Assembly (NCBI RefSeq): GCF_003986975.1
Contig: NZ_PIPO01000003.1
Location: 62,001 to 126,000, forward strand
Direction of reading: 5' to 3'
DNA: 64,000 nucleotides
DNA from: Aliidiomarina soli
GTDB taxonomy: Bacteria; Pseudomonadota; Gammaproteobacteria; Enterobacterales; Alteromonadaceae
Shown here: piece by piece, positions 43,061 through 60,691 of the stretch
How positions within the stretch are numbered: position 1 is the first letter of the stretch
Layout of the letters: each line of letters begins with the position of its first letter
Notes under the pieces: model-generated
What the model saw: only the letters and a program-made list of their open reading frames with translations
What the model was told of the DNA's origin: nothing
The model's database searches: none
Made by a program: the position numbers and the translations under genes

Positions 43061-45904
43061 ATGTACAGAAATAATAAATTAGCCAGCTCTGTGCGCTACG
43101 CGCTGCTATTCGGCGCTTCTTCAACGGCGTTCGTAGGTTCGGCTATTGCACAACAAGATGGTGCAGATGTTGAGCGTATCCAGGTAACTGGTTCACGTAT
43201 TCAACGTACTGATATCGAATCAGCTAACCCAATTACAGTATTCAGTGCTGAAGATCTGGCAGCGTCAGGTCACGTTACTGTAGAAGCATTTATTCACAGC
43301 ATCCCATCCATGAGTGGTGGTATGAACGGTCGTGCAACCAACAACGGCTCTGCAGGTTTCGCATCGGCGTCACTGCGTGGTCTGGGTTCTTCACGTACTC
43401 TGATTCTTATTAACGGTCGTCGTTATGCATCAGGCGACTTGAACTCAATTCCAATGTCGTTTATCGAGCGTGTTGAAGTACTGCGTGACGGTGCATCAAC
43501 CATCTATGGTTCTGACGCAATCGCCGGTGTAGTTAACTTCATTACCCGTCGTGATTTCGAAGGCGCTGAAGTTGTAGCTCAATACGACGTAACTGGCGAA
43601 GGCGACGGCGAGACTTCTCGTGTTGGTTTCACCATTGGTAACTCAAGCAACCGTGGTAACACTGTGTTGTCACTTGAGTACTCTGAGCGTAAGCCAATCT
43701 GGCAGGGCGACCGTGACTTCTCACGTAACCCACTTGCTGAAGTTGCTATTAACGATGGCTTCCAGGTTGACGAGAATGGCGACCCGGTATTAGATGACGA
43801 TGGGGACCCGGTTCCTCAACGCGTTGGTACTGAGCGTATTATCGCTGGCTCAACCGGTAATGCATACGGTAGCTGGTCTTCACTACAAGAAGGCTCTCCA
43901 TACGCAACTGGTGGTCCATACGTAGTAGACCAGGAAACGGGTGCTGTGCGTCCATTCAGTTCTGCGCAAGGCGATGCATATAACTACGCACCAGCCTCGT
44001 ACATGGTTACTCCGCAAAAAGTATTCTCAATTAACGCCGCAGCAAACTATGACCTGACTCAGGACATTACTGCATTTTTGGAAGGTGGTTTCACTAACCG
44101 TCAGTCAGACCAGTTAATGGCAGCAGACGCTACTTTCTGGGGCGCAACCATGGTTGCTGATCACCCTGATAACCCTATCGGTGAAGATATTTCTGTATCA
44201 CGTCGTCTGTATGAAACTGGTGGTCGTAACTTCCAGCAGGACTTCTCAGACTACCGCATGGTAATGGGTCTTGAAGGCTACCTGGACAACGGTTGGGCGT
44301 GGGATGTGTCATACAACTATGCACGCTATGTCGACGCGCGTCTGGATGTTGGCCGTGCTAACCCGAACCGTTATGGTCTGATGCTTAACCCTGAAGCTTG
44401 TTTAGATGATGCTGATTGTACTGCGGCAACTGGTGGCGTTGGCTACTGGAACCCTCTGGCAGAAGACACTCTGACACCGGAAATGATCGCTTACGCATCA
44501 ATTCCGAACTCGCCTCTTATCAAAGGCACTACTAAACAGTTAATGGCTAACTTAACTGGTGATACCGGTAGCTTCGGCCTGCAAGCTGGTCCAATTGGCT
44601 GGGCAACTGGTTATGAGCGTCGCTGGCAGGAATATCAGAGCATTCCAGATGGCGGTGCTACTGTTGGTGAAATCTACTCTGTTACTGCAGCACCAAGTGA
44701 AGGTGCCTACGTAGTAGACGAGGTGTATGGTGAGTTGGCGGTTCCATTGTTAGCTGGTATGCCAGGTGTTGAGCGCTTGGATCTGTCAGCTGCAATTCGT
44801 TACACTGATTATGACTTCCTTGATTCTGACACTACTACTAAATTTGGTATTGAGTATGTGCCGGTACAGGATTTACTGATCCGTGCTACGTATGCGGACG
44901 GTTTCCGTGCGCCAGGTATCTCAGACTTGTTTGCTCCGCAGGCAGAAACCAACACTTCATACACGGATCCGTGTCTGAACTGGGGAAGCAGCTCAAACGA
45001 CAATATTCGTGCGAACTGTGCTGCTGAAGGACTGCCACAGGACTTTGAACTACCGAACAACCAATCAGCTTCAATCAGTGGTGGTAACCCGGATCTGGTA
45101 CCAGAAACTTCTACCAGCTTCACAGCCGGTTTTGTTTGGTCGCCTAGCAATATCCAGAACTTCAGTTTAGCGGTTGATTACTTCAACATTGAAATTGAAG
45201 ATGGTCTGGGTTCCGCTGACTCAACTACTATCGTTCGGGACTGCTATTCAAGTGAAAACTTCTCTAGCCCGTCGTGTGATCTGATTGAAGGCCCTGGTCA
45301 TTCAATCATTGGTCGTCCGTCACTTCCAGGTTCTGACTACCGTGCTAACGACGGTATCGTTTCTGGTATCCTGTTGACCACTGCTAACATCGCAACCTTC
45401 GAAACCTCTGGTATCGATTTCGATGCTAACTGGGCAACGGAACTTGCTGGCGGTCAACTGCGCCTGCGCTTTGACGGTACTTACCTGAACGAGTACAAGT
45501 ATCAGTCGCAATCTGGTACTGACGTACTGGACCTGGCTGGCAAGTACGCAGCGGATCCAAACTTCGGTGGCCGTCGTGCGGCGTTCTTCGACATCCGTGC
45601 TAACTTCCACGTTGGCTATGCCATGGATAACTGGGACGCGAGCTTAATCACTCGTTATCAGTCAGGTGTTGATGACCTGCGTCCAGGTGAATGGAACCTG
45701 TCTGACTCTGTTGGCAGCTACTTCTATCATGACCTGCAAGGTAGCTACTATGTTAGCGAAGGTCTGACAGTAACCGCTGGTATTCGTAACCTGTTCGACA
45801 AGCAACCTCCATATGTTACCGCGAACCAGGATATGAACACCCTGAACTCGTCGTATGACACTGCAGGTCGCTACCTATACGGTCGTGTAAACTACCGTTT
45901 CTAA
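43061..45904 (+). CDS. TonB-dependent outer-membrane receptor 1
   Basis: Outer-membrane importer energised by TonB. The 947-residue precursor has a signal peptide (cleavage after SAIA, near 30), a TonB-box-like region ERIQVTGSRIQR (near 39-50), a plug domain to about 170 (SLRGLGSSRTLILINGRRYASGD, RVEVLRDGASTIYGSDAIAGVVNFITRRDFEG), and a long barrel ending in YGRVNYRF. A Cys-containing loop, DPCLNWG to NCAAEGLP (near 640-665), and GGNPDLVPETS are shared with the two receptors at 54.6 and 57.8 kb. An acidic repeat (ENGDPVLDDDGDPV, near 237-250) resembles a calcium-binding loop. Codon use favours ggt, cgt and aac, as in highly expressed genes. The substrate is unknown. Confidence 0.92.
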   Translation: MYRNNKLASSVRYALLFGASSTAFVGSAIAQQDGADVERIQVTGSRIQRTDIESANPITVFSAEDLAASGHVTVEAFIHSIPSMSGGMNGRATNNGSAGFASASLRGLGSSRTLILINGRRYASGDLNSIPMSFIERVEVLRDGASTIYGSDAIAGVVNFITRRDFEGAEVVAQYDVTGEGDGETSRVGFTIGNSSNRGNTVLSLEYSERKPIWQGDRDFSRNPLAEVAINDGFQVDENGDPVLDDDGDPVPQRVGTERIIAGSTGNAYGSWSSLQEGSPYATGGPYVVDQETGAVRPFSSAQGDAYNYAPASYMVTPQKVFSINAAANYDLTQDITAFLEGGFTNRQSDQLMAADATFWGATMVADHPDNPIGEDISVSRRLYETGGRNFQQDFSDYRMVMGLEGYLDNGWAWDVSYNYARYVDARLDVGRANPNRYGLMLNPEACLDDADCTAATGGVGYWNPLAEDTLTPEMIAYASIPNSPLIKGTTKQLMANLTGDTGSFGLQAGPIGWATGYERRWQEYQSIPDGGATVGEIYSVTAAPSEGAYVVDEVYGELAVPLLAGMPGVERLDLSAAIRYTDYDFLDSDTTTKFGIEYVPVQDLLIRATYADGFRAPGISDLFAPQAETNTSYTDPCLNWGSSSNDNIRANCAAEGLPQDFELPNNQSASISGGNPDLVPETSTSFTAGFVWSPSNIQNFSLAVDYFNIEIEDGLGSADSTTIVRDCYSSENFSSPSCDLIEGPGHSIIGRPSLPGSDYRANDGIVSGILLTTANIATFETSGIDFDANWATELAGGQLRLRFDGTYLNEYKYQSQSGTDVLDLAGKYAADPNFGGRRAAFFDIRANFHVGYAMDNWDASLITRYQSGVDDLRPGEWNLSDSVGSYFYHDLQGSYYVSEGLTVTAGIRNLFDKQPPYVTANQDMNTLNSSYDTAGRYLYGRVNYRF

Positions 45905-45950
45905 GCAGCCTTAGGGCAAAGCTATATTTCGATGTAGTTTGCTAAGAATG

Positions 45951-45984
45951 AAAAGCCAGTCAGCTTGCTGACTGGCTTTTTTTT
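45951..45984 (+). terminator. Rho-independent terminator after receptor 1
   Basis: Arms aaaagccagtcag and ctgactggctttt (with a cttg loop) followed by an eight-T run, 47 bases after the receptor stop codon. Confidence 0.93.
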
Positions 45985-46128
45985 ATGTCTTGCCCGCCCA
46001 TAAATTATGTTGGTTATTTTTAATAAATATTGATCTTAATTAGGATGGCAGCACCGAATTTTGATACAATTTGTTAATTAATTTTTGACTATTTGTATCG
46101 GTTTGTTGATTCGCGTGGTGCCGTTCTT

Positions 46129-47673
46129 ATGCAATTAGCTCCATCTACTATCCAGCAAAGTGCACAACAGGCGTGCTATTTTCATCAGCAACAACAGTTT
46201 GCGCAGGCCTGGGCTAAATTCAGCGTTCTTCCTTATGAAGAGCTGACCCGACTGAATATTGCCGGGCAGGCAGCGGATTCTGCCTATCGGGTGGGTCAGC
46301 TGGAAGCGGCAGAAACCTTATTTAACCTAGCGTTGGTGGACCTGCGTGTACAAGATCCCCGGGCGCTTAGTTACCGGTTTAACCTCGCTCTGATTTATTT
46401 TCAATGGCAGCAGTGGACCCTTTGTATCGATGCGTTAAGCAAGGTTCAACGGGCTAACCCGGCGCACCAGCGTTCGGCGGAATTGCTAACCCAGGTAAGG
46501 CTTCTGCGGGGAACGAACAAAGACATCAAGCTTGCGCTGGTCGCGCTGAAACAGCAGCTGAAGAAAGATCCCCTCAACCGCAAAGCGCTGCAATTATGGG
46601 CGGAAACCCGCTGGTTACAGAATGAAAGCGATTGGTCTGGGCCCTACGATGTTGCGTTACAGGTGCCTGGGCACGAAACCATTCTGGTCGATTATATCCA
46701 GAAATTAACCAGTCTTAACTTACTGCAGCAGGCACAAGAAGTACTGACAAGCTATGGCGGGAAAGGCACGGAGCAAGCGTCGAGCCCTTATTATCAGTAT
46801 TGTACGGCATTGCTTTGTTATCAACAGGGTCGGCCGGTCGATGCGCAGAGCTGGTTGGCAAAGCTGCCATCAGCCTGGTTAGCCAGTTATGCGATTGGTG
46901 AACTGCGTATTAAGGTGTTATTGGCAAACGGAGAGACCGATACGGCGCTGAGGTTAGCTCGTGACCGAGTAGAGGCGTCGCCTGGGAAGCGGGTCGAGCA
47001 AGGAGACTGGGCTTTGCTGGCAACAGCGCTGAAGTTTAGTCAGTGTTACGACGAGTATCGTCGGTTATATGATTTCGACCGTTTCGTGCGGGTAATGCCG
47101 ATTGAATGCCCTCCCGGGTATGACTCGCTGGACGAATTTCATCAGTCATTGATTAGCCAGATTGATAGCCTGCACCGTGATAAGAATCATCCTTTGAACC
47201 AGTCACTACGCTCAGGATCGCAAACTCAGGGGCACCTGTTTCGTCAGGGGCTATCGGATGTAGAAGCGCTGGAAAACGCTATTCGGCAGCAATTGACGCA
47301 GTACATCGAAGACCTTGCTGACGATTCTGAACATCCATTTTTGAGCCGTAAGGCGAAAGAGATTCTGTTTACCGGGGCCTGGTCGGTGAAATTGCGTGAA
47401 CAGGGGTTCCACCAGAACCATTTTCACAATGAAGGCTGGATAAGCGGGTGCTATTACGTGCAAATCCCGAATGCAGTTGAAAAGGAAGGGCAGGGCTGGA
47501 TTAAATTTGGCCAGATAGAATCTGTCCAGACTATTACCGATACGGCCGACTTCATGGTTCGGCCGCGTGCGGGCCACGTGGTCTTTTTCCCATCATATAT
47601 GTGGCACGGCACGCAAGCATTTACCGATAACAACTTTCGGATTACGGTCGCATTTGACCTGATCCCCGGATGA
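46129..47673 (+). CDS. TPR-containing 2OG-Fe(II) oxygenase, PF13759-like
   Basis: Cytoplasmic oxygenase candidate, 514 residues. The N-terminal 300 or so residues are helical repeats resembling TPRs (QQACYFHQQQQFAQAWAKF, LAGQAADSAYRVGQLEAAE type). The C-terminal part (about 390-514) is a putative 2OG-Fe(II) dioxygenase: His433-Asn434-Glu435 gives an HxE pair, His493 lies in MWHGTQAF, and Arg504 in NFRITVAFD could hold 2-oxoglutarate. The SGCYYVQIP and AGHVVFFPSYMWH strands fit the family. The start is chosen at the internal ATG; a TTG 12 codons upstream is the alternative. It precedes a second, different oxygenase by 60 bases, so the two are co-transcribed. Confidence 0.82.
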   Translation: MQLAPSTIQQSAQQACYFHQQQQFAQAWAKFSVLPYEELTRLNIAGQAADSAYRVGQLEAAETLFNLALVDLRVQDPRALSYRFNLALIYFQWQQWTLCIDALSKVQRANPAHQRSAELLTQVRLLRGTNKDIKLALVALKQQLKKDPLNRKALQLWAETRWLQNESDWSGPYDVALQVPGHETILVDYIQKLTSLNLLQQAQEVLTSYGGKGTEQASSPYYQYCTALLCYQQGRPVDAQSWLAKLPSAWLASYAIGELRIKVLLANGETDTALRLARDRVEASPGKRVEQGDWALLATALKFSQCYDEYRRLYDFDRFVRVMPIECPPGYDSLDEFHQSLISQIDSLHRDKNHPLNQSLRSGSQTQGHLFRQGLSDVEALENAIRQQLTQYIEDLADDSEHPFLSRKAKEILFTGAWSVKLREQGFHQNHFHNEGWISGCYYVQIPNAVEKEGQGWIKFGQIESVQTITDTADFMVRPRAGHVVFFPSYMWHGTQAFTDNNFRITVAFDLIPG

Positions 47674-47733
47674 TTGAATGCAGATACTTTGAATCATTAA
47701 ATTCCTCCTTGCCAGGTAGTACGAGGTGACCTT

Positions 47734-48924
47734 ATGACAACACAACAACAGCCACCCACCGAGGAAGGCCTAAAACAACTATTACATGCGAAGGACTATG
47801 CCGCTGCGCTGCTGGTGACTGAGCGCTTACTGACGCGAAATGCAAAAGACGAGCGGTTGCTGTTAATGCTCGGGCGTTTATACGAACTAATTGAATCGAG
47901 TATGGACCCGCAGGCACTTTATACCCGGGTCGTTGATGAAGTTCCCTGCGCGTATAATACCCATCTGATGCTGGGGCGTTATTACGACAGCCGTAAAGAT
48001 GTTGAAGGCGCCTTTAAACACTATGTGTTTGCTTTGCGCACGGCCAATGGGGAAGGCTTCTGGCTCAATAGTGAGTCAACCGCTCCCTGGGCCCATAAAT
48101 TGGTTGCCCGGGCAGTTGACTATGCGGAGCAACATCGGCGAGATGTAATGGAGGGCTGGATAAGTGACCTTGAAAAGGAGTTTGGGGCCGATGAAATAGA
48201 GCGTGTAAGCAAAGGTATCCGCATGTACAGCGGCGAGATCCCGAAGGTTTATGAAGATCCACGGCAGCAGCCTGGCTTCCTCTATATCCCGGGCCTGCCG
48301 GCCAAGCCAGTGTTCGATCGCAGTGACCTCGATTTTATTGACTACTATGAATCTCAGTTTGAAACCATTAAAAGTGAACTGGATGCGCTTATTTCACAAA
48401 ATATTCATATTGAGAATTATCGTGATGAAGACAAACATGGGCTGACCGAAGGTGGGGACTGGGATGCGAAGTTTTTCTACCGCCATGGACAACGCTATGA
48501 CGATACCCATAGCCAGTGTCCGAAGACATCAGAGGTGTTAAGTAACTTACCGTTAGTGCATATAAATGATCATAGTCCCGAGGTTTGTTTTTCGGTGCTA
48601 CAACCTGGTGCTCATTTGTTACCTCATCGCGGTATTACTAACAGCCGTTCAGTGTTACATATGGGCTTGCAGATCCCGCCAAACTGCGCCTTAAATGTGG
48701 TCGATATTGAGCAGTTGAACTGGCAGCCTGGTAAAGTATTTGCCTTTGATGACAATTACTTACATGAGGCATGGAACCGAAGTGACGAAAGTCGTTACGT
48801 GTTGCTTGCTGATATCTGGAATCCGTTTCTGCGAGACAGCGAAAAAGCCGCTATCAGCAAGTTTGTGGAAACTGTTGGTATTTTGAATCGAAAGTACCCA
48901 GCGCAACCAATCTCTGCTATATAA
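47734..48924 (+). CDS. Aspartyl/asparaginyl beta-hydroxylase-like protein with helical N-terminus
   Basis: 396 residues. The C-terminal domain (about 200-390) resembles the PF05118 hydroxylases: HLLPHRGITNSRSVLHMGLQIP with His298, NWQPGKVFAFDDNYLHEAWNRSDESRYVLLADIW with His344, and an Arg (near 354) that would bind 2-oxoglutarate. The family uses two His and no carboxylate as iron ligands, as seen here. The N-terminal half (1-150) is TPR-like helices (AKDYAAALLVTERLL, DSRKDVEGAFKHYVFAL). The natural substrate is unknown: family members hydroxylate proteins or lipids such as lipid A. With the preceding PF13759-like gene it forms a two-oxygenase unit between receptor 1 and the TonB2 module. Confidence 0.85.
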   Translation: MTTQQQPPTEEGLKQLLHAKDYAAALLVTERLLTRNAKDERLLLMLGRLYELIESSMDPQALYTRVVDEVPCAYNTHLMLGRYYDSRKDVEGAFKHYVFALRTANGEGFWLNSESTAPWAHKLVARAVDYAEQHRRDVMEGWISDLEKEFGADEIERVSKGIRMYSGEIPKVYEDPRQQPGFLYIPGLPAKPVFDRSDLDFIDYYESQFETIKSELDALISQNIHIENYRDEDKHGLTEGGDWDAKFFYRHGQRYDDTHSQCPKTSEVLSNLPLVHINDHSPEVCFSVLQPGAHLLPHRGITNSRSVLHMGLQIPPNCALNVVDIEQLNWQPGKVFAFDDNYLHEAWNRSDESRYVLLADIWNPFLRDSEKAAISKFVETVGILNRKYPAQPISAI

Positions 48925-48999
48925 AGTAGCTACACTGAAGCTGTTAAAAATAGGTTAATTATGGCTCAGGTTCGCTCTGAACGGGGCCCGAATCCCCTG

Positions 49000-49187: not shown

Positions 49188-49973
49188 ATGACCAAAGTAA
49201 TCAATAGAAGCAAAATTGCCGCCGCCGTAGTAGGTATTATGGCAGTCGCGGGCAGCGCTACAGTTGCTGCCAACGTTGACTTGTCTCGCCTGCAAGCGGA
49301 GCAAACTGAAACTCATCGCAGCTCTGCTCAGTCTCAAGAGCGCATTGATTCGCTGTTCGAACAGAGCCGTGAGCTGCTTGCCGAATATCGCGCTGTAGTT
49401 AGCCAAACTGAAGCCTTACGTGTCTACAATGACCACGTTGAGCGCTTGGTCAACGATCAGAACGAGACTATGGAGTCGTTGCAACGTCAAATCGACGGCA
49501 TCGAAGAGACTCGTCGTGGCGTGGTTCCTCTGATGTACCGTATGATTGACTCACTGGACGAGTTTGTGCAACTGGATGTTCCAATTCGTAGCGAAAATCG
49601 CGCGAATCGCGTTGAACGCCTGCGTGGAATCATGACTCAGTCTAATGTGACTGACTCTGAAAAATTCCGTCAGATCATGGAAGCCTATCAGGCAGAAATG
49701 GACTACGGTGTTGCGTTGAATGCGTATCAGGGTGATCTGGAAGTTGACGGTGAAACTATATCGGTTGATTTTTTCCACCTTGGCCGTGTTTCTTTCCTTG
49801 CACAGTCACTGGATCAGCGCAATGCATGGCGTTGGGACAACGACGCTCGTGAATGGGTTGAGTTAGACAGCAGTTATCTGAACCCGCTGACACAAGCAAT
49901 CCGTATGGCGCGTAACCAGACACAAGTCGACATCGTGCGCTTACCCGTACCAGCTCCGGAGAATGCAGAATGA
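49188..49973 (+). CDS. DUF3450 exported protein, TonB2-system associated
   Basis: Exported protein of 261 residues, first gene of the TonB2-type module. A signal peptide (N-terminal Lys/Arg residues, hydrophobic run, cleavage after SATVA, near 28) is followed by a long coiled-coil region (about 30-130, EQSRELLAEYRAVVSQTEALR, NDQNETMESLQRQIDG). A compact C-terminal part includes FFHLGRVSFLAQSLDQRNAWRWD (near 200-222). DUF3450 genes regularly precede TtpC-type proteins in Vibrio and Shewanella. The start at 49188 is favoured over far longer frames, and ggga lies just upstream. It overlaps the ttpC start (ATGA). Confidence 0.86.
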   Translation: MTKVINRSKIAAAVVGIMAVAGSATVAANVDLSRLQAEQTETHRSSAQSQERIDSLFEQSRELLAEYRAVVSQTEALRVYNDHVERLVNDQNETMESLQRQIDGIEETRRGVVPLMYRMIDSLDEFVQLDVPIRSENRANRVERLRGIMTQSNVTDSEKFRQIMEAYQAEMDYGVALNAYQGDLEVDGETISVDFFHLGRVSFLAQSLDQRNAWRWDNDAREWVELDSSYLNPLTQAIRMARNQTQVDIVRLPVPAPENAE

Positions 49974-51331
49974 AACAGGTAGTTAAGCAATTAGTATCCG
50001 CTGCAGCCGGTTTATCTCTGGTTGCCGGGTTTGCGTTCTCTGCAAGTGCGCAGGACGCAACTTCGTTGGACGATTTACTGCGCATTGTGCAGGAAAACCG
50101 TGCCTCAGCTCAGCAAATTGACCAGGAGCGCGAACGTCGTTTTATGGACGAGCGTGCTGACCGTCAGCAAATGCTGAGTCAGGCTGAAGCTCAGATGCAA
50201 CAAGAAGAAGAGCGCGGTCAACGTTTGCAGGAAGAATTCGCACAAAACGAAATCGACATTGCGAACAAAGAAACTGAACTGGATAACATGGTTGGCACCT
50301 TAGGTGAAATCTTCGGTGTTATCCGTGGTGCAGCGTCTGACACTATCGGTCGTATTTCGACTTCAGTAGTGAGCGCAGAATATCGTGGTCGTGAAGATGT
50401 ACTGGAAAGCCTGGCGGAAGCTCAGGAACTGCCAAACATCAGCGAACTGGAAGATCTGTGGATCGCGTTACTGACTGAAATGCGTGAATCTGGTCGCGTA
50501 AGCCGTTTTGAAGGTGAAGTAACCTTGCTTGAAGGTGGTACTGAAACACGTGAAATCGTCCGTGTTGGTGCGTTTAACCTGATTTCAAATGGTGAATACT
50601 TACTTTACAACGAAGACCTTGAACAGATTCAACCATTGGGTCGCCAACCAGACGGCTATATTTTAAAGGCAGCACGTGACTTCGAGAACTCCTCTGAAGG
50701 CTATGCTGGCGTCTACCTTGACCCTGCTCGTGGCGGTATCTTAAGTCTGTTGACGCAAAAAGCGACACTGTCTGAACGCTATCATGAAGGTTCAACGGTA
50801 GGTTATGCGATTACGGTTGTTTTAATAGTGGGTCTACTGATCGCTATCTATAAGCTAGTAACCTTAACCATGGCTGGTGCTCAGATTCGTTCACAGCTGA
50901 AGAATCCTGAGAGTCCAGGCAACAACCCACTGGGTCGTATCCTCACGGTTTATCACGACAATAAGAATGTTGACGTTGAAACGCTTGAACTTAAGCTCGA
51001 CGAAGCAATCTTACGTGAAACACCGAAGATTGATTCCGGCGTAGGCATTATTAAAGTGCTGGCGGCTATTTCACCGCTGATGGGTCTGTTGGGTACGGTT
51101 ATCGGTATGATCGGAACCTTCCAGTCAATTACTCTGTTTGGTACCGGTGACCCGCGTATCATGGCAGGTGATATCTCAATGGCGTTGGTTACAACTGCAT
51201 TGGGTCTGATTGCAGCGTTGCCATTGATTGTTGTGCACAGCATTGTTGCTGGCCGCGCTAAGTCGATTGTTCAGATTCTTGATGAGCAAGCTGCTGGAAT
51301 CATTGCTTCTCACGCGGAGAAGGGAGAGTAA
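49970..51331 (+). CDS. ttpC: TtpC-type MotA/TolQ/ExbB proton channel protein
   Basis: Membrane protein of 453 residues. It has a signal peptide (cleavage after SASA), then a long periplasmic coiled coil (about 30-130, including FMDERADRQQMLSQAEAQMQ), and a transmembrane helix near 277-298 (VGYAITVVLIVGLLIAIYKLV). A MotA/TolQ/ExbB domain follows (about 350-447, KVLAAISPLMGLLGTVIGMIGTFQSI and GDISMALVTTALGLIAALPLIV). This layout, an ExbB-like domain preceded by a periplasmic coiled coil, is TtpC, an essential fourth component of TonB2 systems in Vibrio. It begins inside the DUF3450 stop codon. Confidence 0.88.
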   Translation: MKQVVKQLVSAAAGLSLVAGFAFSASAQDATSLDDLLRIVQENRASAQQIDQERERRFMDERADRQQMLSQAEAQMQQEEERGQRLQEEFAQNEIDIANKETELDNMVGTLGEIFGVIRGAASDTIGRISTSVVSAEYRGREDVLESLAEAQELPNISELEDLWIALLTEMRESGRVSRFEGEVTLLEGGTETREIVRVGAFNLISNGEYLLYNEDLEQIQPLGRQPDGYILKAARDFENSSEGYAGVYLDPARGGILSLLTQKATLSERYHEGSTVGYAITVVLIVGLLIAIYKLVTLTMAGAQIRSQLKNPESPGNNPLGRILTVYHDNKNVDVETLELKLDEAILRETPKIDSGVGIIKVLAAISPLMGLLGTVIGMIGTFQSITLFGTGDPRIMAGDISMALVTTALGLIAALPLIVVHSIVAGRAKSIVQILDEQAAGIIASHAEKGE

Positions 51332-51333
51332 GC

Positions 51334-51861
51334 ATGCAATTCTACCTGATGGGGCTTTGGGAAACTGTCAGGGATTTTATTGCGACAGGTGGCGATGTTT
51401 TATACCTCGTCTTTATAGCGCTCTTAGTTATGTGGATTGTAATGATTGAGCGCTACTGGTACCTGTTTGGTGTGTTCCCGAAAGATCGGGAACGCATCAT
51501 CAAGCAGTGGGATGAGCGGAAAGATACGACATCCTGGTATGCACATAAAATCCGTGAGGCCTGGGTTTCCGAGGTTTCAGTAAAACTGAACGAACGCATG
51601 CTGTTGTTGAAAACCATGATCGTAATGTGTCCGATGATCGGACTGTTAGGCACGGTAACAGGTATGATTGCAGTATTTGAAGTTATGGCGGTACAGGGAA
51701 CGGGTAACCCTCGTTTGATGGCCGGCGGTATTTCAATGGCAACCATCCCAACAATGGCTGGAATGGTGGCGGCATTGTCCGGAATGTTCTTTGCTTCTCG
51801 TCTCGATGCACGTATTCGTCGCGAGCAGGACAAACTGCTAGACAGCTTGCCACATCACTAA
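51334..51861 (+). CDS. exbB2: ExbB-type proton channel subunit of the TonB2 system
   Basis: 175-residue MotA/TolQ/ExbB protein with three hydrophobic segments: near 20-40, TMIVMCPMIGLLGTVTGMIAVFEVM near 90-115, and GGISMATIPTMAGMVAALSGMFFA near 130-153. It forms the proton channel with ExbD2 and energises TonB2. The size is short, like other ExbB2 proteins (ExbB1 has about 240). It lies 2 bases after ttpC and 12 before exbD2. It and the TtpC C-terminal domain carry similar LMGLLGT/MIGLLGT motifs, evidence that the two are paralogues. Confidence 0.9.
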   Translation: MQFYLMGLWETVRDFIATGGDVLYLVFIALLVMWIVMIERYWYLFGVFPKDRERIIKQWDERKDTTSWYAHKIREAWVSEVSVKLNERMLLLKTMIVMCPMIGLLGTVTGMIAVFEVMAVQGTGNPRLMAGGISMATIPTMAGMVAALSGMFFASRLDARIRREQDKLLDSLPHH

Positions 51862-52275: not shown

Positions 52276-52276
52276 T

Positions 52277-52888
52277 ATGGTGCGCGTAATAGTATCAATA
52301 TTACTAGGCGCCGCAGTCACGTTTGCTCTGTTTGTCTTTATGGCTTTCTTGATCAGTGGTGGGGCTCAGCGTGCTGAGGCCCCTGAGCCACCCACCCGGA
52401 TCGATATTGTCTCTGAGCCACCAGAGCAGGACGTGGATACGCGTCGCCGTACTCCGCCGCCTCCTCCGGAACCGCCTGAGGCGCCACCTGAACAGCCGGA
52501 CAGTGAGCCAGATACATCTGACGACTCTGTTGGGTTTAATATGGACATGGGTGGTGTAGATGTAGGTGGAACCGATACTGGCCTGCAAGGTCCAGGTGGT
52601 GGATTAGGTCGTGATGGTGATGCACAGCCAATCGTTCGTATTGAACCTCGTTATCCAGCCGCCGCCGCGCGTGATGGTATCGAAGGTTGGGTACGCTTAC
52701 GGTTCACCATTGACGAAACCGGTGGAGTCACTGATATCGAAATCATTGAATCCGAACCACGCCGCGTGTTTGACCAGGAAGCTCGCCGAGCATTGGCTCG
52801 CTGGCGTTATGCGCCGCAAGTTGTTGACGGTGTGCCGCAGCGTCAGGAAGGCATGACGGTTCAACTTGACTTCACAATGGGGGAGTAA
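52277..52888 (+). CDS. tonB2: TonB2-type energy transducer
   Basis: Protein of 203 residues spanning from the inner membrane to the outer-membrane receptors. An N-terminal transmembrane helix (about 2-27) is followed by a Pro-rich linker (about 52-80, RTPPPPPEPPEAPPEQPDSEP) and a short acidic, Gly-rich stretch. The C-terminal TonB domain (about 115-203) contains RIEPRYPAAAARDGIEGWVRLRFTIDETGGVTDIEII and ARWRYAPQVVDG. The linker is shorter than in E. coli TonB (239 residues), as in other TonB2 proteins. It is likely to serve the three receptors around it. Confidence 0.93.
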   Translation: MVRVIVSILLGAAVTFALFVFMAFLISGGAQRAEAPEPPTRIDIVSEPPEQDVDTRRRTPPPPPEPPEAPPEQPDSEPDTSDDSVGFNMDMGGVDVGGTDTGLQGPGGGLGRDGDAQPIVRIEPRYPAAAARDGIEGWVRLRFTIDETGGVTDIEIIESEPRRVFDQEARRALARWRYAPQVVDGVPQRQEGMTVQLDFTMGE

Positions 52889-52891
52889 GTA

Positions 52892-54283
52892 ATGAATTTT
52901 AAACAGACATTACTTGCCGGGGCAGTAGCAGTAAGCCTTGGCTTCGTATCCTCTGGTGCGTACGCGTTGCAGGAAGGTGAGCCAAATGCCGAGGCGCAGG
53001 CGAGAGCGGAAGCTCGAGCAGCGCAACGGTCCTTCGCAGAGCGACAGCGTCAAACTGATAACATTGATGTTGGTTTTCGTATTCCGTCGCCAGATGAAGT
53101 CGAACGAGCACGCGACAGCCGTCGAAATCAGGCAGCAAGCGAACAAGTTGGTCGCCGTATCATGCAGGCATTTGAACTGTATGAGGAAGAAGATATTCCA
53201 GGGGCAATAAACATTCTGGAAGGGATAAATACCCGGACTGAATATGATACTGCCTATGTGAATCGCTTCTTAGGTAACCTTTACGCTGCGGGAGAGCGCG
53301 CTCAGGATGCAATTAATCGCCTTGAGCAGGCCATTGCACCTGATATTCTGGGCTTTAACGACCAGGAAGCAGCAATGCTATTGGTCGCCAACCTGCATCT
53401 TCAGGAAGAGAACTTTCAGCAGGCAGTAGAAAACTACCGCCGTTGGATTCAGTTCACCGGCCGTATGGACCCGGATGTGTTTGTTCGCATGGCAAATGCG
53501 CACATGCAAATGGAGAATTACGCGCAGGTTGTTCCGTTGGCTCGTAAAGCCCGTCACTATCAGATGGAACCAAATCGCAACCCGTACATTTTGCAGTTCG
53601 CGTCTTTATATGAACTGCAACGTATGGATGAGTCGATAGAGGTTCTTGAAGAAGCGGTGCAGGCGATACCAACTGAAGAACGTTGGTGGGCGCAGCTGGG
53701 AATGTTGTACTTCCAGCAGGAACGTTCTGATGAAGCGCTGGCAACGATGGATCTGGCGTACCGCGCTGGTTTCCTGTCGCAGCAGAATGACTTCCGTGCG
53801 TTGGCGCAGATGTTCAGTAACAACATGATCCCTTATCGTGCGGCGGAAGTGTTACGTCGTCATCTGGAATCTGATGATATTGACAAGACCGCTCGCAATT
53901 ACTCGATTGCGGCAAGTGCATACCATAGCGCCCGTGAGTTTGAGCAGGCGAATGAGATGTACGTGTTAGCTGCCGAGAATGCGGAGTCACGTGAAGATCG
54001 TCATGATTATCACCGTCGCCGCGGCAACTCGTTGCTGCTAGCGGATAACTATGCAGAAGCTGCTCGCGCGTTTAACGCTGCCTTAGAAACCGCTGAATCA
54101 GACGACGACGGCCTAGGTCGTGTTTACATGTCGTTGGCAGAAGCGTACTTCTATACAGAGCGTTATACTGACGCGGTTCGTGCTGCAGAACGTGCTGCAC
54201 GATACAGTGATCAGCGTCGCAATGCTGAAAGCTGGGCCAATTACATTCGTGAGACTGCCGAACGCCGTGGTGTCGACATCTAA
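52892..54283 (+). CDS. Exported TPR protein of the TonB2 module
   Basis: 463-residue protein with a signal peptide (cleavage after GAYA, near 25) and helical TPR repeats from about 80 to the end (QAFELYEEEDIPGAINILE, NLHLQEENFQQAVENYRRWI, LGMLYFQQERSDEALATM, RAFNAALETAES and others). It is periplasmic by prediction and probably acts as an adaptor. A TPR gene regularly closes TonB2 modules in Vibrio and Shewanella. It starts 3 bases after tonB2 and ends before a strong terminator, so DUF3450 to TPR is one operon. Confidence 0.85.
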   Translation: MNFKQTLLAGAVAVSLGFVSSGAYALQEGEPNAEAQARAEARAAQRSFAERQRQTDNIDVGFRIPSPDEVERARDSRRNQAASEQVGRRIMQAFELYEEEDIPGAINILEGINTRTEYDTAYVNRFLGNLYAAGERAQDAINRLEQAIAPDILGFNDQEAAMLLVANLHLQEENFQQAVENYRRWIQFTGRMDPDVFVRMANAHMQMENYAQVVPLARKARHYQMEPNRNPYILQFASLYELQRMDESIEVLEEAVQAIPTEERWWAQLGMLYFQQERSDEALATMDLAYRAGFLSQQNDFRALAQMFSNNMIPYRAAEVLRRHLESDDIDKTARNYSIAASAYHSAREFEQANEMYVLAAENAESREDRHDYHRRRGNSLLLADNYAEAARAFNAALETAESDDDGLGRVYMSLAEAYFYTERYTDAVRAAERAARYSDQRRNAESWANYIRETAERRGVDI

Positions 54284-54305
54284 CGTTTGCTAATTATACA
54301 ACTAT

Positions 54306-54335
54306 GAAAGCCCGCCCTTGTGGTGGGCTTTTTTA
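54306..54335 (+). terminator. Rho-independent terminator after the TonB2 operon
   Basis: Arms aagcccgcc and ggtgggctt (one G-U) with a cttgt-type loop, then a T-run, about 20 bases after the TPR stop codon. Confidence 0.92.
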
Positions 54336-54581: not shown

Positions 54582-57503
54582 ATGTTTAAAAATAATTCTC
54601 TTAACAGTAGTGTACGCCGCGTTCTTTTCGCGGGTAGTGCGCTAAGTATCGCGTTACCGGGGATGGCGGTTGCGCAGGACACAAATACCAATTCAGGCGC
54701 TGATGGAACTGAACGTATTCAGGTTACTGGTTCACGCATTATTCGTGAAGGTGCCGTAGCACCAGCGCCGGTTACGGTCATTTCAGGCGATGAACTGCTT
54801 GCATCCGGGGCTATGAACATCGGTGAAGTGTTGTCACGTTTACCTGCAATGGCGAACACCTACACCCTGGCGAATTCCGGCCGTTTCATTGGTACCGCCG
54901 GTGCCAGCCTGCTCGACCTTCGTGGTATGGGTACCAGCCGTACACTGGTGCTAGTTGACGGACGTCGTCATGTTGCAGGTTCAGCAAGCTCAGCAGCGGT
55001 TGATACCAATACGATTCCAAGTACCTGGATCGAACGTGTTGAGATTATCACAGGTGGTGCTTCTGCCGTTTATGGTGCCGACGCTGTAACTGGGGTAGTT
55101 AACTTTATCCTCAAGCGTGATATCGAAGGCTTCGATGCCACAGTGACCAAAGGCTGGGCCGAAAATCACGGCTACAACAACGAACGTTTCACGCTGTCGT
55201 ATGGTACAAACTTTGCTGATAACCGCGGTAACGTCGCAGCCTCGTTTGAATACAATGCGCAGGATTCATTGAATGCAATGGATCATCACTACGCTAATAC
55301 CTCCTGGGCGACGATTGGGCATCAGTATATGCCGGATGGCCCACGCCCAGACAGTGAAGCAACCAACCCAGACTTTCCTGACCGCTATACGGTGCCGAAC
55401 GCAGGCTACTACGATATGTCGGAAGCGGGCGCGTTCTTTGTCGGTGATGCCGGTAACCCTGATAACTGGTATGTATTTGAAGACGACGGCAGCTTCCGTA
55501 AGAACACTATGGGCGGCCTGGTCGACCCGGGTTATAGCTACTGTCAGGAACCATGTGACTATATCAACCTGCGTCAGTACTCCGAGTTACAACCGCAGTT
55601 TGAGCGGGTAGGGGTTAATGTTAAGAGTAACTACGAAGTTAATCAGGACCTGACTGCATTTGTAGAAGCCAAGTACGTTCGTACCGAAGGGCAGAACATT
55701 GGTCAGCCGTTTTTCCACTATGGGTATAACCCGGAAGCCGGCCCTTACCGTCTCGCCCGCAACAACGCTTTTATAAATGATGAATTGCGCGGGATGATGG
55801 ACGATGCAGGGCAGCAATACCTGAACGTCAATAAGTTCCATAACGACCTGGGTCGTCGCGTTGAAGACAATACGCGTGAAACCATGCGTTTTGTGGCGGC
55901 GGTCGAAGGTCACTTCACCGACGACTGGAGCTATGATGCGTCACTGGTCTGGGGTCGTACGGACATTGAACGAGTGAACGGCGCCAACGTTATTATTGAG
56001 AATTACGAAAATGCGATCGATGCAGTCTATAACAACGCCGGTGAAATTGTATGTGCCAGTGGCGCTGAAGGCTGTGTGCCGATCAACATCATGGGCCGCG
56101 AAGGTATTTCTGAGGAAGCAGCTGACTACATCACTACTACCTCAGTGGGTACGGCCGAAGTAGAGCAGCGCGTCGCAACCTTTAACGTACAGAATCCGTA
56201 CTTATACACCTTACCAGCAGGTTATGTCGGTTTCGCCGGTGGTGTTGAGTATCGTGAAGAAAGTGCAGTGACCAACGAAGACGCGTTCGCAGCTACGGGT
56301 GCGACCTTTTTCAATGCCTTAGGTGAAGTCGACGGTGAATTCGACGTTACTGAAGTGTACGCTGAACTCTCCATCCCGCTGGTGGCAGACGTATTCCTGG
56401 TACGTGATCTGCTACTGGATACTGCAGTTCGTCTGGCCGATTACTCGACTGTGGGCAACGCCACCAGTTGGAAAGTAGGTCTGGACTGGAGCATCACCGA
56501 CGAGCTACGTGCGCGCTTTACTGCATCTGAAGCCTTGCGTGCCCCTAACATTAACGAGTTGTTCTCGGCCCAGAGCCAGACATTCTATGATGTTGATGAC
56601 CCGTGTAAAGCATCCGAACTTGCCAACGTAACCGCAGAAACCGCAGCTCAACGTCGCGCTGCCTGTCAGGCCCTGGGAGTACCGGAAGGCTTTGACGACA
56701 ACTACGACAGTGCGCGTTTGGAAGGTCGTTCAGGTGGTAACCCTGATCTGCAACCAGAAGAGTCACGCTCGTATACGGTGGGTGTGGTGTATCAGCCAGA
56801 TTGGCTGGCAGGTTTCTCTGCCACACTGGATTACTGGGAAATCGATATCACGGATACGATTTCATCGCTGAATGCACAACGTATTCTGACTGAGTGTCTG
56901 GATGCCGGCAGCATTAACAACCAGTATTGTGCTCGTATTACCCGCGAGCAGGATGGACCAAACCAGGGCCAGATTACTCAGATTGAAAACTTCTCGCTGA
57001 ATATTGCGCGCAGCTTCAATCGCGGTGTTGACTTCGAATTTGGTTATGACTTTGATGCGCTGGAGGGGCGCTTCCGCACCGCATTACTGGGTACTTACCT
57101 GCTAGATGCGAAGAGCTATCCGTTCCAGAACGAGCCAGACGACTACACGGATTATGCCGGTGTATTGGGTGACGCTGACCTGCAGTTACGTTTGACCCTG
57201 GATTATTCACGTGACAACTGGTCGGTGGGAACTCGTACTCGTTTCAGCAACGGTGTCAATCTGTATAACCCAACTCAGCTGTCACAAAATCCGAATCCAA
57301 GCAACTTCATGGATTATGGTTCGTACGCAGTGACTGATTTGACAGGCTCGTACCTGTTCAATAATGGGGTACGTCTGACGTTAGGTCTGGATAACCTGTT
57401 TGATCGCGATATGCCACGCAACTCAACAGGTACCACTGCCGGAGCTGCTTACTACGATAACATCGGCCGTTTCGGTTATGTGCGTGTAGGCTATTCGTTC
57501 TAA
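54582..57503 (+). CDS. TonB-dependent outer-membrane receptor 2
   Basis: Outer-membrane receptor of 973 residues. A signal peptide (cleavage after AVA, near 31) is followed by TonB-box-like GTERIQVTGSRIIREG and a plug with LLDLRGMGTSRTLVLVDGRRHVAGS and RVEIITGGASAVYGADAVTGVVNFILKRDIEG. The barrel ends in FGYVRVGYSF. It contains DPCKASELA to AACQALGVPEGF and GGNPDLQPEESRS, like receptor 1, so the three receptors are one family. Immediately downstream of the TonB2 operon, it has its own upstream region and terminator. The substrate is unknown; this large group includes carbohydrate and peptide transporters. Confidence 0.92.
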   Translation: MFKNNSLNSSVRRVLFAGSALSIALPGMAVAQDTNTNSGADGTERIQVTGSRIIREGAVAPAPVTVISGDELLASGAMNIGEVLSRLPAMANTYTLANSGRFIGTAGASLLDLRGMGTSRTLVLVDGRRHVAGSASSAAVDTNTIPSTWIERVEIITGGASAVYGADAVTGVVNFILKRDIEGFDATVTKGWAENHGYNNERFTLSYGTNFADNRGNVAASFEYNAQDSLNAMDHHYANTSWATIGHQYMPDGPRPDSEATNPDFPDRYTVPNAGYYDMSEAGAFFVGDAGNPDNWYVFEDDGSFRKNTMGGLVDPGYSYCQEPCDYINLRQYSELQPQFERVGVNVKSNYEVNQDLTAFVEAKYVRTEGQNIGQPFFHYGYNPEAGPYRLARNNAFINDELRGMMDDAGQQYLNVNKFHNDLGRRVEDNTRETMRFVAAVEGHFTDDWSYDASLVWGRTDIERVNGANVIIENYENAIDAVYNNAGEIVCASGAEGCVPINIMGREGISEEAADYITTTSVGTAEVEQRVATFNVQNPYLYTLPAGYVGFAGGVEYREESAVTNEDAFAATGATFFNALGEVDGEFDVTEVYAELSIPLVADVFLVRDLLLDTAVRLADYSTVGNATSWKVGLDWSITDELRARFTASEALRAPNINELFSAQSQTFYDVDDPCKASELANVTAETAAQRRAACQALGVPEGFDDNYDSARLEGRSGGNPDLQPEESRSYTVGVVYQPDWLAGFSATLDYWEIDITDTISSLNAQRILTECLDAGSINNQYCARITREQDGPNQGQITQIENFSLNIARSFNRGVDFEFGYDFDALEGRFRTALLGTYLLDAKSYPFQNEPDDYTDYAGVLGDADLQLRLTLDYSRDNWSVGTRTRFSNGVNLYNPTQLSQNPNPSNFMDYGSYAVTDLTGSYLFNNGVRLTLGLDNLFDRDMPRNSTGTTAGAAYYDNIGRFGYVRVGYSF

Positions 57504-57530
57504 ATCAACTCTGATCTAATCTCAAAATCT

Positions 57531-57559
57531 AAAAAGGCGCCTCCGGGCGCCTTTTTTTG
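57531..57559 (+). terminator. Rho-independent terminator after receptor 2
   Basis: GC-rich arms aaaggcgcc and ggcgccttt with a short tccg-type loop, then a seven-T run, 28 bases after the stop codon. Confidence 0.93.
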
Positions 57560-57802: not shown

Positions 57803-60691
57803 ATGAGTCGCAAATCATTCTTAGCGAGCTCTATCCGGAGCGCTTTAGTTGTGTCTTTGGGGGCCGGTCTGCTGGCTGCGCCTGCTGCATTTGCACAACA
57901 GGAAGCTGAAGAACAAGAAGCTCAAGATCGTACAGAACGAATTCAGGTCACAGGGTCGCGCATCGCTCGTCCAGAGTTGTCGCAAGCAGCACCTGTGGTG
58001 TCAATCGGTCGGGAAGAGCTGGCTAATTTTGGCTCGCCTGACTTAGGTCAGATTCTTGCTGAATTACCAGCAATTGGTGCTACTGACACATTAATCGGTA
58101 ACCGCGAAAGTAATGCTTCAGCTGGTGTTAGTTCGGCTGACTTACGTCGCCTGGGCGCCTCTCGTACGCTGGTACTGGTAAATGGTAAGCGCCATGTAGC
58201 TGGTGATCCGGGTTCGGCGCAGGTTGATTTATCAACCATTCCATCTGCCATGATTGAACGTATCGAAATCATGACCGGTGGTGCATCGGCCATTTATGGT
58301 TCAGATGCGGTTTCTGGTGTAATTAACGTTATTACCCGTCGTGACTTCGAAGGCGTTGAATTCAATGCCCGTGGTACCACTTCAACTGAAGGTGTTGGCG
58401 CGCGGACTCACGAATTCAGCCTGGTAGGCGGTGGTGACTTTATGAATGGCCGCGGTAACGCGACTTTCAATATTGGCATGAACCGTATTCAGGAAACCAT
58501 GGAAAGTGACATTCGCCAGTTCGATTACTGGGGAACGGTTTTGAACCCAGAGGATACTGGTCGTTTAGATGGTATTCCTGATCGCTTTTGGGCTCCGGGC
58601 GTTGGTACCGAGTACCTTTCCGGTACAGGTGTTATCCCATTAGGGCCGTTCTACGGCTTCTTCCCAGATGGCAGCTGGCAGGAGCAGCCTGAGCGTCAAG
58701 GTAGTAACTCAGCGCTATTTGGCTGGTTCCCTGATGGTTGTGAAACCTGTGGATACCCAGACGACTGGGTAAACTTCCAGCCAGGTCTGAACCGGGTTAC
58801 AGCTGGTTCATCGTTAAACTTCGAGATGAATGACAATGCGCGTTTATACGCCGACTTCAAATACGTTGAAGCGGACGTGACTCAGCAGTTCCAGCCGATG
58901 TTTGAACAGGGCATGGTCATCAACGTCGACGACAACCCATATTTGCCAGAAGATTTACGCGCAATCTTCCAGGGTGCAGGCATTGAAGAAGTGCCACTAT
59001 GGAAGTGGTTTGACGACTGGGGTCCTCGTACTGCAGACAACCGCCGCCAGACATTCCGCACGGTAATGGGTGTTGATGGTATTTTTGATATGAATCGTAG
59101 CTTCCTCCAGTACGATGTATATTATGGCTATGGCGAAACTCGCAACAGCCGGACCACGCAAAACGAAATTATTCGTAACGCAGCTGGTGTCAGCAACGTC
59201 AACGCGGCTATCGATACCATCCGCGATGGTGACGGTAATATCGTATGTCGTGACCCGGACGCAGGTCTGGTCAACGCAGGTGGCGAATGTGTACCTTATA
59301 ACCCATTTGGTACCAATGCGACGCCAGAAGCTATTGCGTTCATTTCACATGATTCAAACCGTCAGGACGTAATTACACAAGAATACGTTGGTGCCAGCTT
59401 TGTAACAGACACCGCGAACTTCTTTGAATTACAGGGCGGTGCTATTGACGTGGCATTTGGTGCGGAATGGCGCGAAGAGACTTCTTCGACTACTACTGAC
59501 GCCTTTACCAAAGCAGGTTTAAGCGGCAGTGCAGCAACACCAGATGCATTTGGTAGTTATGACGTGACGGAAGGTTTTGTCGAGGTTAACTTGCCAATTC
59601 TTGCCGGGTTGCGTGGTGTTGAAGAGCTGACTGTGGATCTTGCGTATCGTGCGGCCGATTACTCGCATGCTGGTTCTGCTGATGCGTGGAAAGTTGGCTT
59701 TATGTATGCGCCGATTCCGGATGTACGTCTTCGTGGTACCATCGGTCAAGCGGTTCGCGCTCCGAATATTACCGAAGCGTTCGACCCGCAATCACCAGGT
59801 TTTGTTAACGTAACAGATCCGTGTGACCAAACGCGTCAGGATATGAACCCGAACCGTGCGGCTAACTGTGCTGCGTTAGGTATTCCTGCTGATTTCGAGT
59901 CGGTTACCAATGCGAGTATCGACCTGGTATCAGGTGGTAACCCTAACCTAGACGTTGAAACTTCTGACTCATGGACCGCTGGTGTTGTCTGGACACCGTC
60001 CTACGTTGAAGGTCTGAGCCTGACATTGGATATCTATGATATTCAGATTGAAGACGCGATTACCTTCATTCAGCCGCAGGACATTATCAATAACTGTGTG
60101 GATTCAGAAGGTGGTTTATCTACTGACTTCTGTCCTCAGGTTACCCGTGGCGATGACTTGCAGTTAACTGCAGTAACGTCGGGTTATCTGAACGCAGCGG
60201 CAATCGAGACCCGTGGTATTGAGTTAGACGTAAGATACCGCACCGATTTGGCGCGTTGGGACTTACCTGGCTCACTGTCAAGCTCATTGTTTGTTAACCA
60301 TCTGGACAAATGGGTACGTTATGACTTCCAGGATCAGCCTGAGCTGGATAACGTAAACGACGGCCAGGTGGGTGACCCAAGCTGGCAGTTCCGTTTGACC
60401 AACACCTATCGTCTAAATGACTGGTCGGCAAACTGGACTATGCGCTTTATTGACCGTTCTGCGTTGTTTAACGTGACTCCACGTCTCGAAAGCTATGAGA
60501 ACGTCAGTCCGGGTTACATTGGGTCAATTACCACGCATGACATTTCAGGCACCTACTACTTCGGTGAAAACCTGACATTTAATGCAGGTATCCGTAACGT
60601 GCTGGATAAGGTACCACCAGGCTATACAGGCAACGCGCTGTATGACCTTGTTGGTCGCCGTGTCTTTGCTGGAGTTACTTTCAACTTCTAA
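57803..60691 (+). CDS. TonB-dependent outer-membrane receptor 3
   Basis: 962 residues. A signal peptide (cleavage after AFA) is followed by a short acidic linker (EAEEQEAQDR), TonB-box-like TERIQVTGSRIARPE and a plug with DLRRLGASRTLVLVNGKRHVAGD and RIEIMTGGASAIYGSDAVSGVINVITRRDFEG. The barrel ends in VFAGVTFNF. It shares the TDPCDQ to NCAALGIPADF loop and GGNPNLDVETS with the other two receptors. Sequence differences among the three are largest in the barrel loops, as expected if they bind related but distinct ligands. Terminated just downstream; monocistronic. Confidence 0.92.
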   Translation: MSRKSFLASSIRSALVVSLGAGLLAAPAAFAQQEAEEQEAQDRTERIQVTGSRIARPELSQAAPVVSIGREELANFGSPDLGQILAELPAIGATDTLIGNRESNASAGVSSADLRRLGASRTLVLVNGKRHVAGDPGSAQVDLSTIPSAMIERIEIMTGGASAIYGSDAVSGVINVITRRDFEGVEFNARGTTSTEGVGARTHEFSLVGGGDFMNGRGNATFNIGMNRIQETMESDIRQFDYWGTVLNPEDTGRLDGIPDRFWAPGVGTEYLSGTGVIPLGPFYGFFPDGSWQEQPERQGSNSALFGWFPDGCETCGYPDDWVNFQPGLNRVTAGSSLNFEMNDNARLYADFKYVEADVTQQFQPMFEQGMVINVDDNPYLPEDLRAIFQGAGIEEVPLWKWFDDWGPRTADNRRQTFRTVMGVDGIFDMNRSFLQYDVYYGYGETRNSRTTQNEIIRNAAGVSNVNAAIDTIRDGDGNIVCRDPDAGLVNAGGECVPYNPFGTNATPEAIAFISHDSNRQDVITQEYVGASFVTDTANFFELQGGAIDVAFGAEWREETSSTTTDAFTKAGLSGSAATPDAFGSYDVTEGFVEVNLPILAGLRGVEELTVDLAYRAADYSHAGSADAWKVGFMYAPIPDVRLRGTIGQAVRAPNITEAFDPQSPGFVNVTDPCDQTRQDMNPNRAANCAALGIPADFESVTNASIDLVSGGNPNLDVETSDSWTAGVVWTPSYVEGLSLTLDIYDIQIEDAITFIQPQDIINNCVDSEGGLSTDFCPQVTRGDDLQLTAVTSGYLNAAAIETRGIELDVRYRTDLARWDLPGSLSSSLFVNHLDKWVRYDFQDQPELDNVNDGQVGDPSWQFRLTNTYRLNDWSANWTMRFIDRSALFNVTPRLESYENVSPGYIGSITTHDISGTYYFGENLTFNAGIRNVLDKVPPGYTGNALYDLVGRRVFAGVTFNF

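Follow-up and report, generated by a model that had tools for sequence, protein, structure and literature searches.

Genes for TonB-dependent receptors (TBDRs) adjoin genes for 2-oxoglutarate (2OG)/Fe(II) oxygenases in CciT-CciO of Caulobacter, Fiu-YbiX of Escherichia coli and PiuA-PiuC of Pseudomonas. According to the portion of PMC12004947 used here, this pairing is conserved across Proteobacteria, and the function of the receptor CciT strictly needs its cytoplasmic 2OG oxygenase, while the functional connection between the two kinds of protein had been undefined and the mechanism is left to three models. A second described arrangement is TonB2 of Vibrio, in which TtpB2 comes first and TtpD2 carries tetratricopeptide repeat (TPR) motifs, both proteins being termed essential for iron transport in the part of PMC6957404 used here. 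We describe here a locus of Aliidiomarina soli, at 43061-60691 of a 64,000-nucleotide stretch of contig NZ_PIPO01000003.1 (hereafter the window), where a TBDR gene (TBDR1) likewise adjoins oxygenase genes. It differs from CciT-CciO and its kin in that its enzymes belong to the PF13759 and PF05118 families and carry TPR-like regions, that a TonB2 module adjoins them, and that relatives exchange sulfotransferases and methyltransferases in the enzyme slot. Unlike Vibrio TonB2/TonB3, it has oxygenase genes upstream of the module and another type of receptor.

The locus lies entirely on the + strand and comprises TBDR1, two oxygenase-like genes, the six-gene TtpB-TtpC-ExbB-ExbD-TonB-TtpD module, TBDR2 and TBDR3 (Table 1). 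The original prediction had described a 17.6-kb one-strand set of three TBDRs, a full TonB2 module and two oxygenase-like genes, and Pfam and NCBIfam profile searches bore this out, with the expected domains present in all open reading frames (ORFs) of the locus. We propose that TBDR1, the two oxygenases and the module form one functional unit, in which the oxygenases would hydroxylate a polypeptide, most economically the receptor before its export; we give this reading a probability of roughly 0.48. What computation shows in its support is the domain make-up, the folds, the intact catalytic residues, a gene linkage that recurs across proteobacteria, and the exchange of enzymes in the same slot.

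Oxygenase 1 scored 79.5 bits against PF13759 (gathering cut-off 27) and 48.3 against TIGR02466 of NCBIfam, below the curated cut-off of 62.5. Its N-terminus is TPR-like, with TPR_4 below cut-off and helical repeats in the predicted model. Residues H431, H433, H493 and R504 of the PF13759 domain are kept in 13/13 aligned sequences and also in 86/86, the latter figure being partly by construction, as those loci were found with these very motifs. The usual motif of 2OG oxygenases is HxD/E...H; the PF13759 enzymes here carry HxH...H (amino acids 431-493 of the product of 46129-47673 in the window), and iron binding by three His would be uncommon in this class. The uncharacterised proteins PDB 2rg4 and 3bvc share the fold of the catalytic domain and the HxH motif but, unlike the locus enzyme, have no TPR region.

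Oxygenase 2 scored 144.5 against PF05118 (cut-off 22.6), its Fe/2OG residues are kept in the alignment to 5apa, and human AspH structures are its best match by both sequence and fold, PiuC (9qn0) being a distant fold match. As in human AspH, a TPR region is joined to a PF05118 oxygenase, and His298, His344 and Arg354 align with human His679, His725 and Arg735 (read from the alignment, with numbers from PDB titles), whereas a Val stands at the position read as human Arg688. Unlike AspH, the enzyme is bacterial and probably cytoplasmic, with no endoplasmic reticulum or epidermal growth factor (EGF)-domain substrate in sight. Scores against the LpxO and OlsC models fall below the equivalog cut-offs (68.1 vs 500 and 98.2 vs 450). 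In fold, both enzymes resemble human AspH as well as further protein hydroxylases, and hydroxylation of Asp/Asn in a protein is the putative activity of the PF05118 enzyme. Oxygenases of the PiuC/YbiX kind have a PF13640-type domain; Pfam gave no PF13640 match in either window oxygenase, and no PiuC-named model was among the NCBIfam matches. Each oxygenase is the sole member of its family found in its own genome, where a search for PF13469 found none. The cytoplasm is the expected location for 2OG oxygenases of this type, and no signal peptide was seen by eye in either oxygenase; both look cytoplasmic. For these two reasons the suggestion of the original prediction that they act on a partner in the periplasm is unlikely to hold.

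The linkage of these genes was followed in a survey of 197 genomes drawn from the order, from which 20 stretches were fetched. PF13759 was found in 32 genomes, DUF3450 in 125 and PF05118 in 32; the counts over cut-off are 27 for PF13759 and 119 for DUF3450. Of the 38 PF13759 places scoring over cut-off, at least 9 have ttpB no more than 6 kb away, in every case in the same orientation; they span four families, and the count rests on 33 ttpB places, nearly all from genomes that also have PF13759. The order TBDR-oxygenase-module was found in the fetched stretches of G006, G020, G106, G121, G134, G160 and G193; the stretch of G095 contains the TBDR and oxygenase, the ttpB position there coming from the survey table. 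An AspH gene accompanies the TBDR, oxygenase and module in G000, G134 and G160. In a wider scan of named genomes, limited to the best 80 of 552 oxygenase 1 relatives, 52 loci extended 5 kb or more to either side (the 28 shorter ones being omitted from the 52), and 38 of these 52 have a TBDR within 6 kb. Genes for AspH, sulfotransferases, PF13640/13661-like oxygenases or methyltransferases stand in 28/49 TBDR-linked loci vs 2/31 others, the latter two (L145, L162) both at contig ends; neighbours were labelled with profiles built from order-survey loci and Pfam-checked on samples. The module adjoins the oxygenase in 9/80 loci, from Alteromonas species, other Alteromonadaceae, Shewanella and Ferrimonas. 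The check for conserved co-occurrence that had been proposed with the original prediction, run in part, did not refute it: oxygenase 1 goes together with a TBDR, and also with the six-gene module in genera that include Alteromonas, Shewanella and Ferrimonas; the AspH enzyme is found there less often. Separately, 14 loci, mostly alphaproteobacterial records, have an oxygenase 1 relative with no receptor within 6 kb and no other tailoring enzyme (Table 1).

Between receptor and ttpB, relatives have either an empty slot or one that holds other hydroxylases, TPR-sulfotransferases or methyltransferases. For example, G090 has a TPR-sulfotransferase between TBDR and ttpB, G059 has an AspH gene beside ttpB in divergent orientation, and the slot in G134 and G160 also holds a methyltransferase, a TPR-sulfotransferase and two PF13661 oxygenases. 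Four different 2OG oxygenases fill the slot in Alteromonas lipotrueae (L093), and a TPR-sulfotransferase is also found there in an Alteromonadaceae metagenome-assembled genome (MAG; L129). Since unrelated types of TPR-bearing enzyme appear in it, the slot may be a single place for modifiers that share the same kind of target. Among 20 further ttpB loci, the receptor directly adjoins ttpB in L212, L225, L226 and L227, with no enzymes recognised by the profiles over the fetched stretch, and the receptors of L225 and L226 have 62% and 55% identity to enzyme-linked receptors. There, receptor and energiser are therefore the constant parts and the enzymes accessory. The exchangeable enzymes in the relatives' sets suggest that chemical tailoring acts on such receptors or on their cargo.

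The three receptors had been taken as one family and, with the other genes, as one functional block that would serve a single large substrate. In a tree of 93 receptors they do share one broad family, yet they fall into three separate clades. The TBDR1 clade contains receptors of L091, Alteromonas salexigens, Ferrimonas, Shewanella, G193 and Microbulbifer, all enzyme-linked; when enzyme-free loci were added, L226 joined it, and 7/8 clade rows are enzyme-linked. In a second clade of 39 receptors, 26 directly adjoin an enzyme, 12 are near one, and the single member labelled far is the G090 receptor beside the sulfotransferase and ttpB. The label 'adjacent' requires 12 changes on the tree vs 28.3 in shuffles, with 0/500 as low. 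Among the matches listed, with scores of the listed pieces summed by hand, the closest match to TBDR1 is an enzyme- or ttpB-locus receptor in 8/11 other genomes (G006, G020, G052, G090, G106, G121, G160 and G193); in G095 the receptor that follows ttpD within that locus comes closest, and in G059 and G134 one elsewhere in the genome does. Over 55 loci, oxygenase and TBDR distances correlate with r 0.49 (0/2000 permutations). TBDR2 and TBDR3, by contrast, cluster with receptors labelled far, a set that is small (21/93) and partly picked as good TBDR1 matches, and therefore we kept only TBDR1 as core. What stands of the block is the recurring unit of TBDR1, oxygenase 1 and the module; a block of three receptors is weakened, if not finally, by the grouping of the other two. 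Receptors after ttpD do occur in L076, L169 and L226.

The module has the gene order DUF3450 (TtpB), TtpC, ExbB, ExbD, TonB and TPR protein (TtpD), which is that of a TonB2-type Ttp module and resembles Vibrio TonB2/TonB3 with TtpC, TtpB2 and TtpD2 (PMC6957404, in the same part). Judging by their families, its Ttp, Exb and TonB proteins would energise TBDR1. The start codon of ttpB ends an invariant 16-base element, TTGGTTGGGAACTATG, a further difference from Vibrio TonB2/TonB3, in which no search by name was made for it. Exactly one copy occurs in each of 35/197 order genomes (reversed control 0), and a comparison with the ttpB table places all 35 just upstream of a DUF3450 match. With ttpB genes located independently of the motif, TGGTTGGGAACTATG stands at the ttpB start in 16/17 genes of the order-survey stretches and the 80-locus set (L086 being without it) and in 7/20 of the further ttpB loci (G090 being without it). 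Third codon bases within the element are invariant among motif-bearing loci. In 30 motif-picked rows, the 60 bases upstream have no column conserved at 80% or more, and the codon after the element is TCC in 28/30. Among 274 genomes of the class, nearly all from other orders, only G000 and G006 have exact copies of TTGGTTGGGAACTATG, and the 10 places with one mismatch are about what the reversed control gives. The element resembles a site that controls ttpB at the nucleotide level.

Taken together, a polypeptide, perhaps the receptor before export, is the favoured putative substrate of the enzymes. We infer a polypeptide because of the TPR regions and because few transport or catabolic genes are found among the recurrent neighbours, and point to the receptor since it is the always-present partner in the smallest sets (L121, L143, L169). 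Cytoplasmic oxygenases with AspH-like TPR superhelices would hydroxylate a polypeptide passing through the cytoplasm; receptor loops would be hydroxylated ahead of Sec export, and this might tune the ligand range of TBDR1 or its exposure to phages and bacteriocins. A secreted peptide recaptured by the receptor would be the second choice of polypeptide. With sulfotransferases, methyltransferases, other hydroxylases or an empty slot in relatives, tailoring would be accessory to transport. In its broadest form, the proposal would describe a proteobacterial receptor-tailoring system, in which cytoplasmic TPR enzymes (several hydroxylase families, sulfotransferases and methyltransferases), exchanged in a slot beside a TBDR and, in many gammaproteobacteria, a private energiser, modify the chain of that receptor ahead of its export and thereby decide what it admits among ligands, phages or bacteriocins; we regard this generalization as rather unlikely. 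TBDR/2OG-oxygenase pairs and Ttp modules are already known, and a search of the open-access literature found no description of a TPR-enzyme slot joined to a private energiser, which would be the new element. To the question of why cytoplasmic oxygenases accompany receptors of the outer membrane, the locus contributes other enzyme families. Its relatives offer a natural experiment, in which kindred receptors and the same kind of module occur with an oxygenase, AspH, a sulfotransferase, several of these, or none, so that the substrate could be approached by mass spectrometry in culturable marine bacteria.

Several observations weigh against receptor hydroxylation within such a unit. The enzyme-free receptor of L226 lies within the TBDR1 clade, and such receptors therefore manage without the enzymes in some genomes. 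Among the matches listed, another receptor is closer to TBDR1 in G059, G095 and G134, and many enzyme-linked receptors fall outside the TBDR1 clade. The correlation of distances may be mere co-inheritance, and it drops to r 0.18 among distant pairs. A TBDR is missing nearby in 14/52 loci, and the best 80 of 552 loci, being selected by enzyme motif, are not a random sample. In the portion of PMC12004947 used here, CciT is still made without its oxygenase, and the three models of its authors are small-molecule ones.

The strongest rival is that the oxygenases act on small-molecule cargo, helping to make the TBDR1 ligand (e.g., a hydroxylated chelator or peptide) or transforming it after import. 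Such models are carried by the known pairs with CciO, PiuC and YbiX (PMC12004947 and PMC12004943, in the parts used here). The AspH family also includes lipid hydroxylases (the OlsC and LpxO matches being below cut-off), and, counting once more against the receptor as substrate, oligopeptide ABC-transporter genes (PF08352, PF00496) in 3/80 loci (L096, L101, L160) fit cargo models, as may the peptidase genes of some loci (DUF885 in L072, L083 and L169; prolyl oligopeptidase type in L105 and L142); both kinds of gene hint at a peptide cargo. However, the window's unit has none of these transporter or peptidase genes, and beyond L096, L101 and L160 no importer, exporter, nonribosomal peptide synthetase (NRPS) or catabolic set stood out by eye in the 28 clusters of unlabelled neighbours that recur most often. 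With TPR regions common to enzymes of unrelated families, and window enzymes that do not match PF13640, we consider cargo action rather unlikely.

It is less probable still that the enzymes tailor a ribosomal secreted peptide or mini-protein, of the kind of ribosomally synthesized and post-translationally modified peptides (RiPPs) or signalling peptides, which TBDR1 would recognise or take back up. In its favour, the enzyme repeatedly has a small secreted Cys-loop protein as neighbour, six loci hold another small protein weakly similar to VasI, and a gene list in the part of PMC10040529 used here places an aspartyl beta-hydroxylase and a sulfotransferase next to lasso-peptide genes. Against this, small-ORF searches found no Cys-loop gene in the window, the relative in its own genome is among genes without a cassette-profile match, and no maturase or exporter stood out by eye among the recurrent neighbour clusters. 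Very improbable, finally, is mere coincidence, in which TBDR-rich genomes pair TBDRs and TPR enzymes by chance and the window enzymes serve something unrelated such as lipid hydroxylation: with 8-37 TBDR matches per genome in 12 genomes (among the matches listed) some adjacency is expected, roughly 10-25 percent within 6 kb by our own rough estimate, but 38/52 loci, the one-strand TBDR-oxygenase-ttpB order in four families, the enzyme-linked receptor clades and the LpxO and OlsC scores far below cut-off argue otherwise.

The small proteins adjoining the oxygenase in several cassettes look secreted or lipoprotein-like by eye and carry C-x6-GS-x6-C, and those scanned matched no Pfam family over cut-off; loci with such a gene next to the enzyme come from Alteromonas, Rheinheimera, Luteimonas, Stenotrophomonas and MAGs. 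As a substrate, this protein is a weak lead only, and was set aside, since its relatives in G000 (at G000:C6:296193), G052 and G095 lie among genes that no cassette profile recognised. The second small secreted protein occurs near enzymes, its VasI similarity being below cut-off in two members.

Within the locus, hairpin-plus-T sites after TBDR1, ttpD, TBDR2 and TBDR3 suggest that there are probably four transcription units, namely TBDR1, the oxygenases with the module, TBDR2, and TBDR3. The scan gave 26 terminator-like sites vs 18.1 in shuffles, and therefore any single site is soft. The start of oxygenase 1 was set by judgement at ATG 46129 over TTG 46093, and that of ttpB at ATG 49188 over 49014 from the conserved leader.

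Table 1. Positions of locus features in the window, followed by genes and loci in other genomes that are mentioned in the text.
Feature	Position	Strand	Remarks
13-base repeat TTAATTAGGATGG, copy 1, upstream of TBDR1	42902..42914	+	exact copies genome-wide: 2
TBDR1, cassette TonB-dependent receptor (Plug and beta-barrel)	43061..45904	+	PF07715, PF00593 over cut-off; enzyme-linked receptor clade
Terminator-like hairpin 3' of TBDR1	45950..45981	+	terminator scan
13-base repeat TTAATTAGGATGG, copy 2, upstream of oxygenase 1	46036..46048	+	
Oxygenase 1: TPR-like superhelix and PF13759 2OG-Fe(II) oxygenase-like domain (HxH...H...R)	46129..47673	+	
Oxygenase 2: helical TPR-like N-terminus and AspH-type PF05118 oxygenase	47734..48924	+	PF05118 3.1e-42
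Invariant 16-base element TTGGTTGGGAACTATG, 3' end at ttpB start codon	49175..49190	+	
TtpB, DUF3450	49188..49973	+	PF11932 5.5e-88
TtpC-like: weak DUF3450-like region and MotA/TolQ/ExbB domain	49970..51331	+	PF01618 1.1e-27; PF11932 7.5e-05, below cut-off
ExbB	51334..51861	+	PF01618
ExbD	51874..52275	+	PF02472
TonB	52277..52888	+	PF03544, TIGR01352 over cut-off
TtpD-like TPR protein; signal peptide judged by eye	52892..54283	+	TPR families
Terminator-like hairpin 3' of ttpD	54306..54332	+	terminator scan
TBDR2, membership less certain	54582..57503	+	PF07715, PF00593 over cut-off; in tree with receptors labelled far
Terminator-like hairpin 3' of TBDR2	57531..57556	+	perfect 11-base inverted repeat and T run; outside terminator-scan listing
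TBDR3, membership less certain	57803..60691	+	PF07715, PF00593 over cut-off; in tree with receptors labelled far
Terminator-like hairpin 3' of TBDR3	60722..60743	+	terminator scan
Small Cys-loop protein loci	L093 7466-7747, L116, L122, L129, L137, L153, L095, L134, L144, L161, L170		
Second small protein loci	L134 8423-8890, L144 8420-8893, L092, L096, L131, L160		
Oligopeptide-transporter genes	L096 near 1224; L101 12700-14391; L160 1979-2968 and 4716 on		
Oxygenase 1 relatives with no receptor within 6 kb and no other tailoring enzyme	L097, L098, L106, L108, L113, L118, L119, L127, L139, L147, L150, L151, L154, L159		
Bufferin-like genes	L091 12265-14228; L084 12103-14052; L078 3563-3973; L072 18873-19259; L153 14470-15318		

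The repeat TTAATTAGGATGG was first spotted by eye and has four one-mismatch copies elsewhere in the 3.1 Mb genome. It showed no conservation in the upstream regions of relatives, and at least 13 shared bases also occur in 4/147 upstream pairs of other loci, so the repeat is weak. No convincing Fur box was found in five upstream regions, where the best matches to the Fur-box consensus reached 10-13/19 and were equalled in 33-193/200 shuffles. In several genomes, genes with GKCGEGKCGG repeats, or for adjoining proteins of 280 and 245 amino acids, lie a few kb from the cassette; we take these genes to be bufferin-like. An Rfam scan of 40000-64000 of the window gave a single match, a bacterial small signal recognition particle (SRP) RNA gene at 40357-40453.

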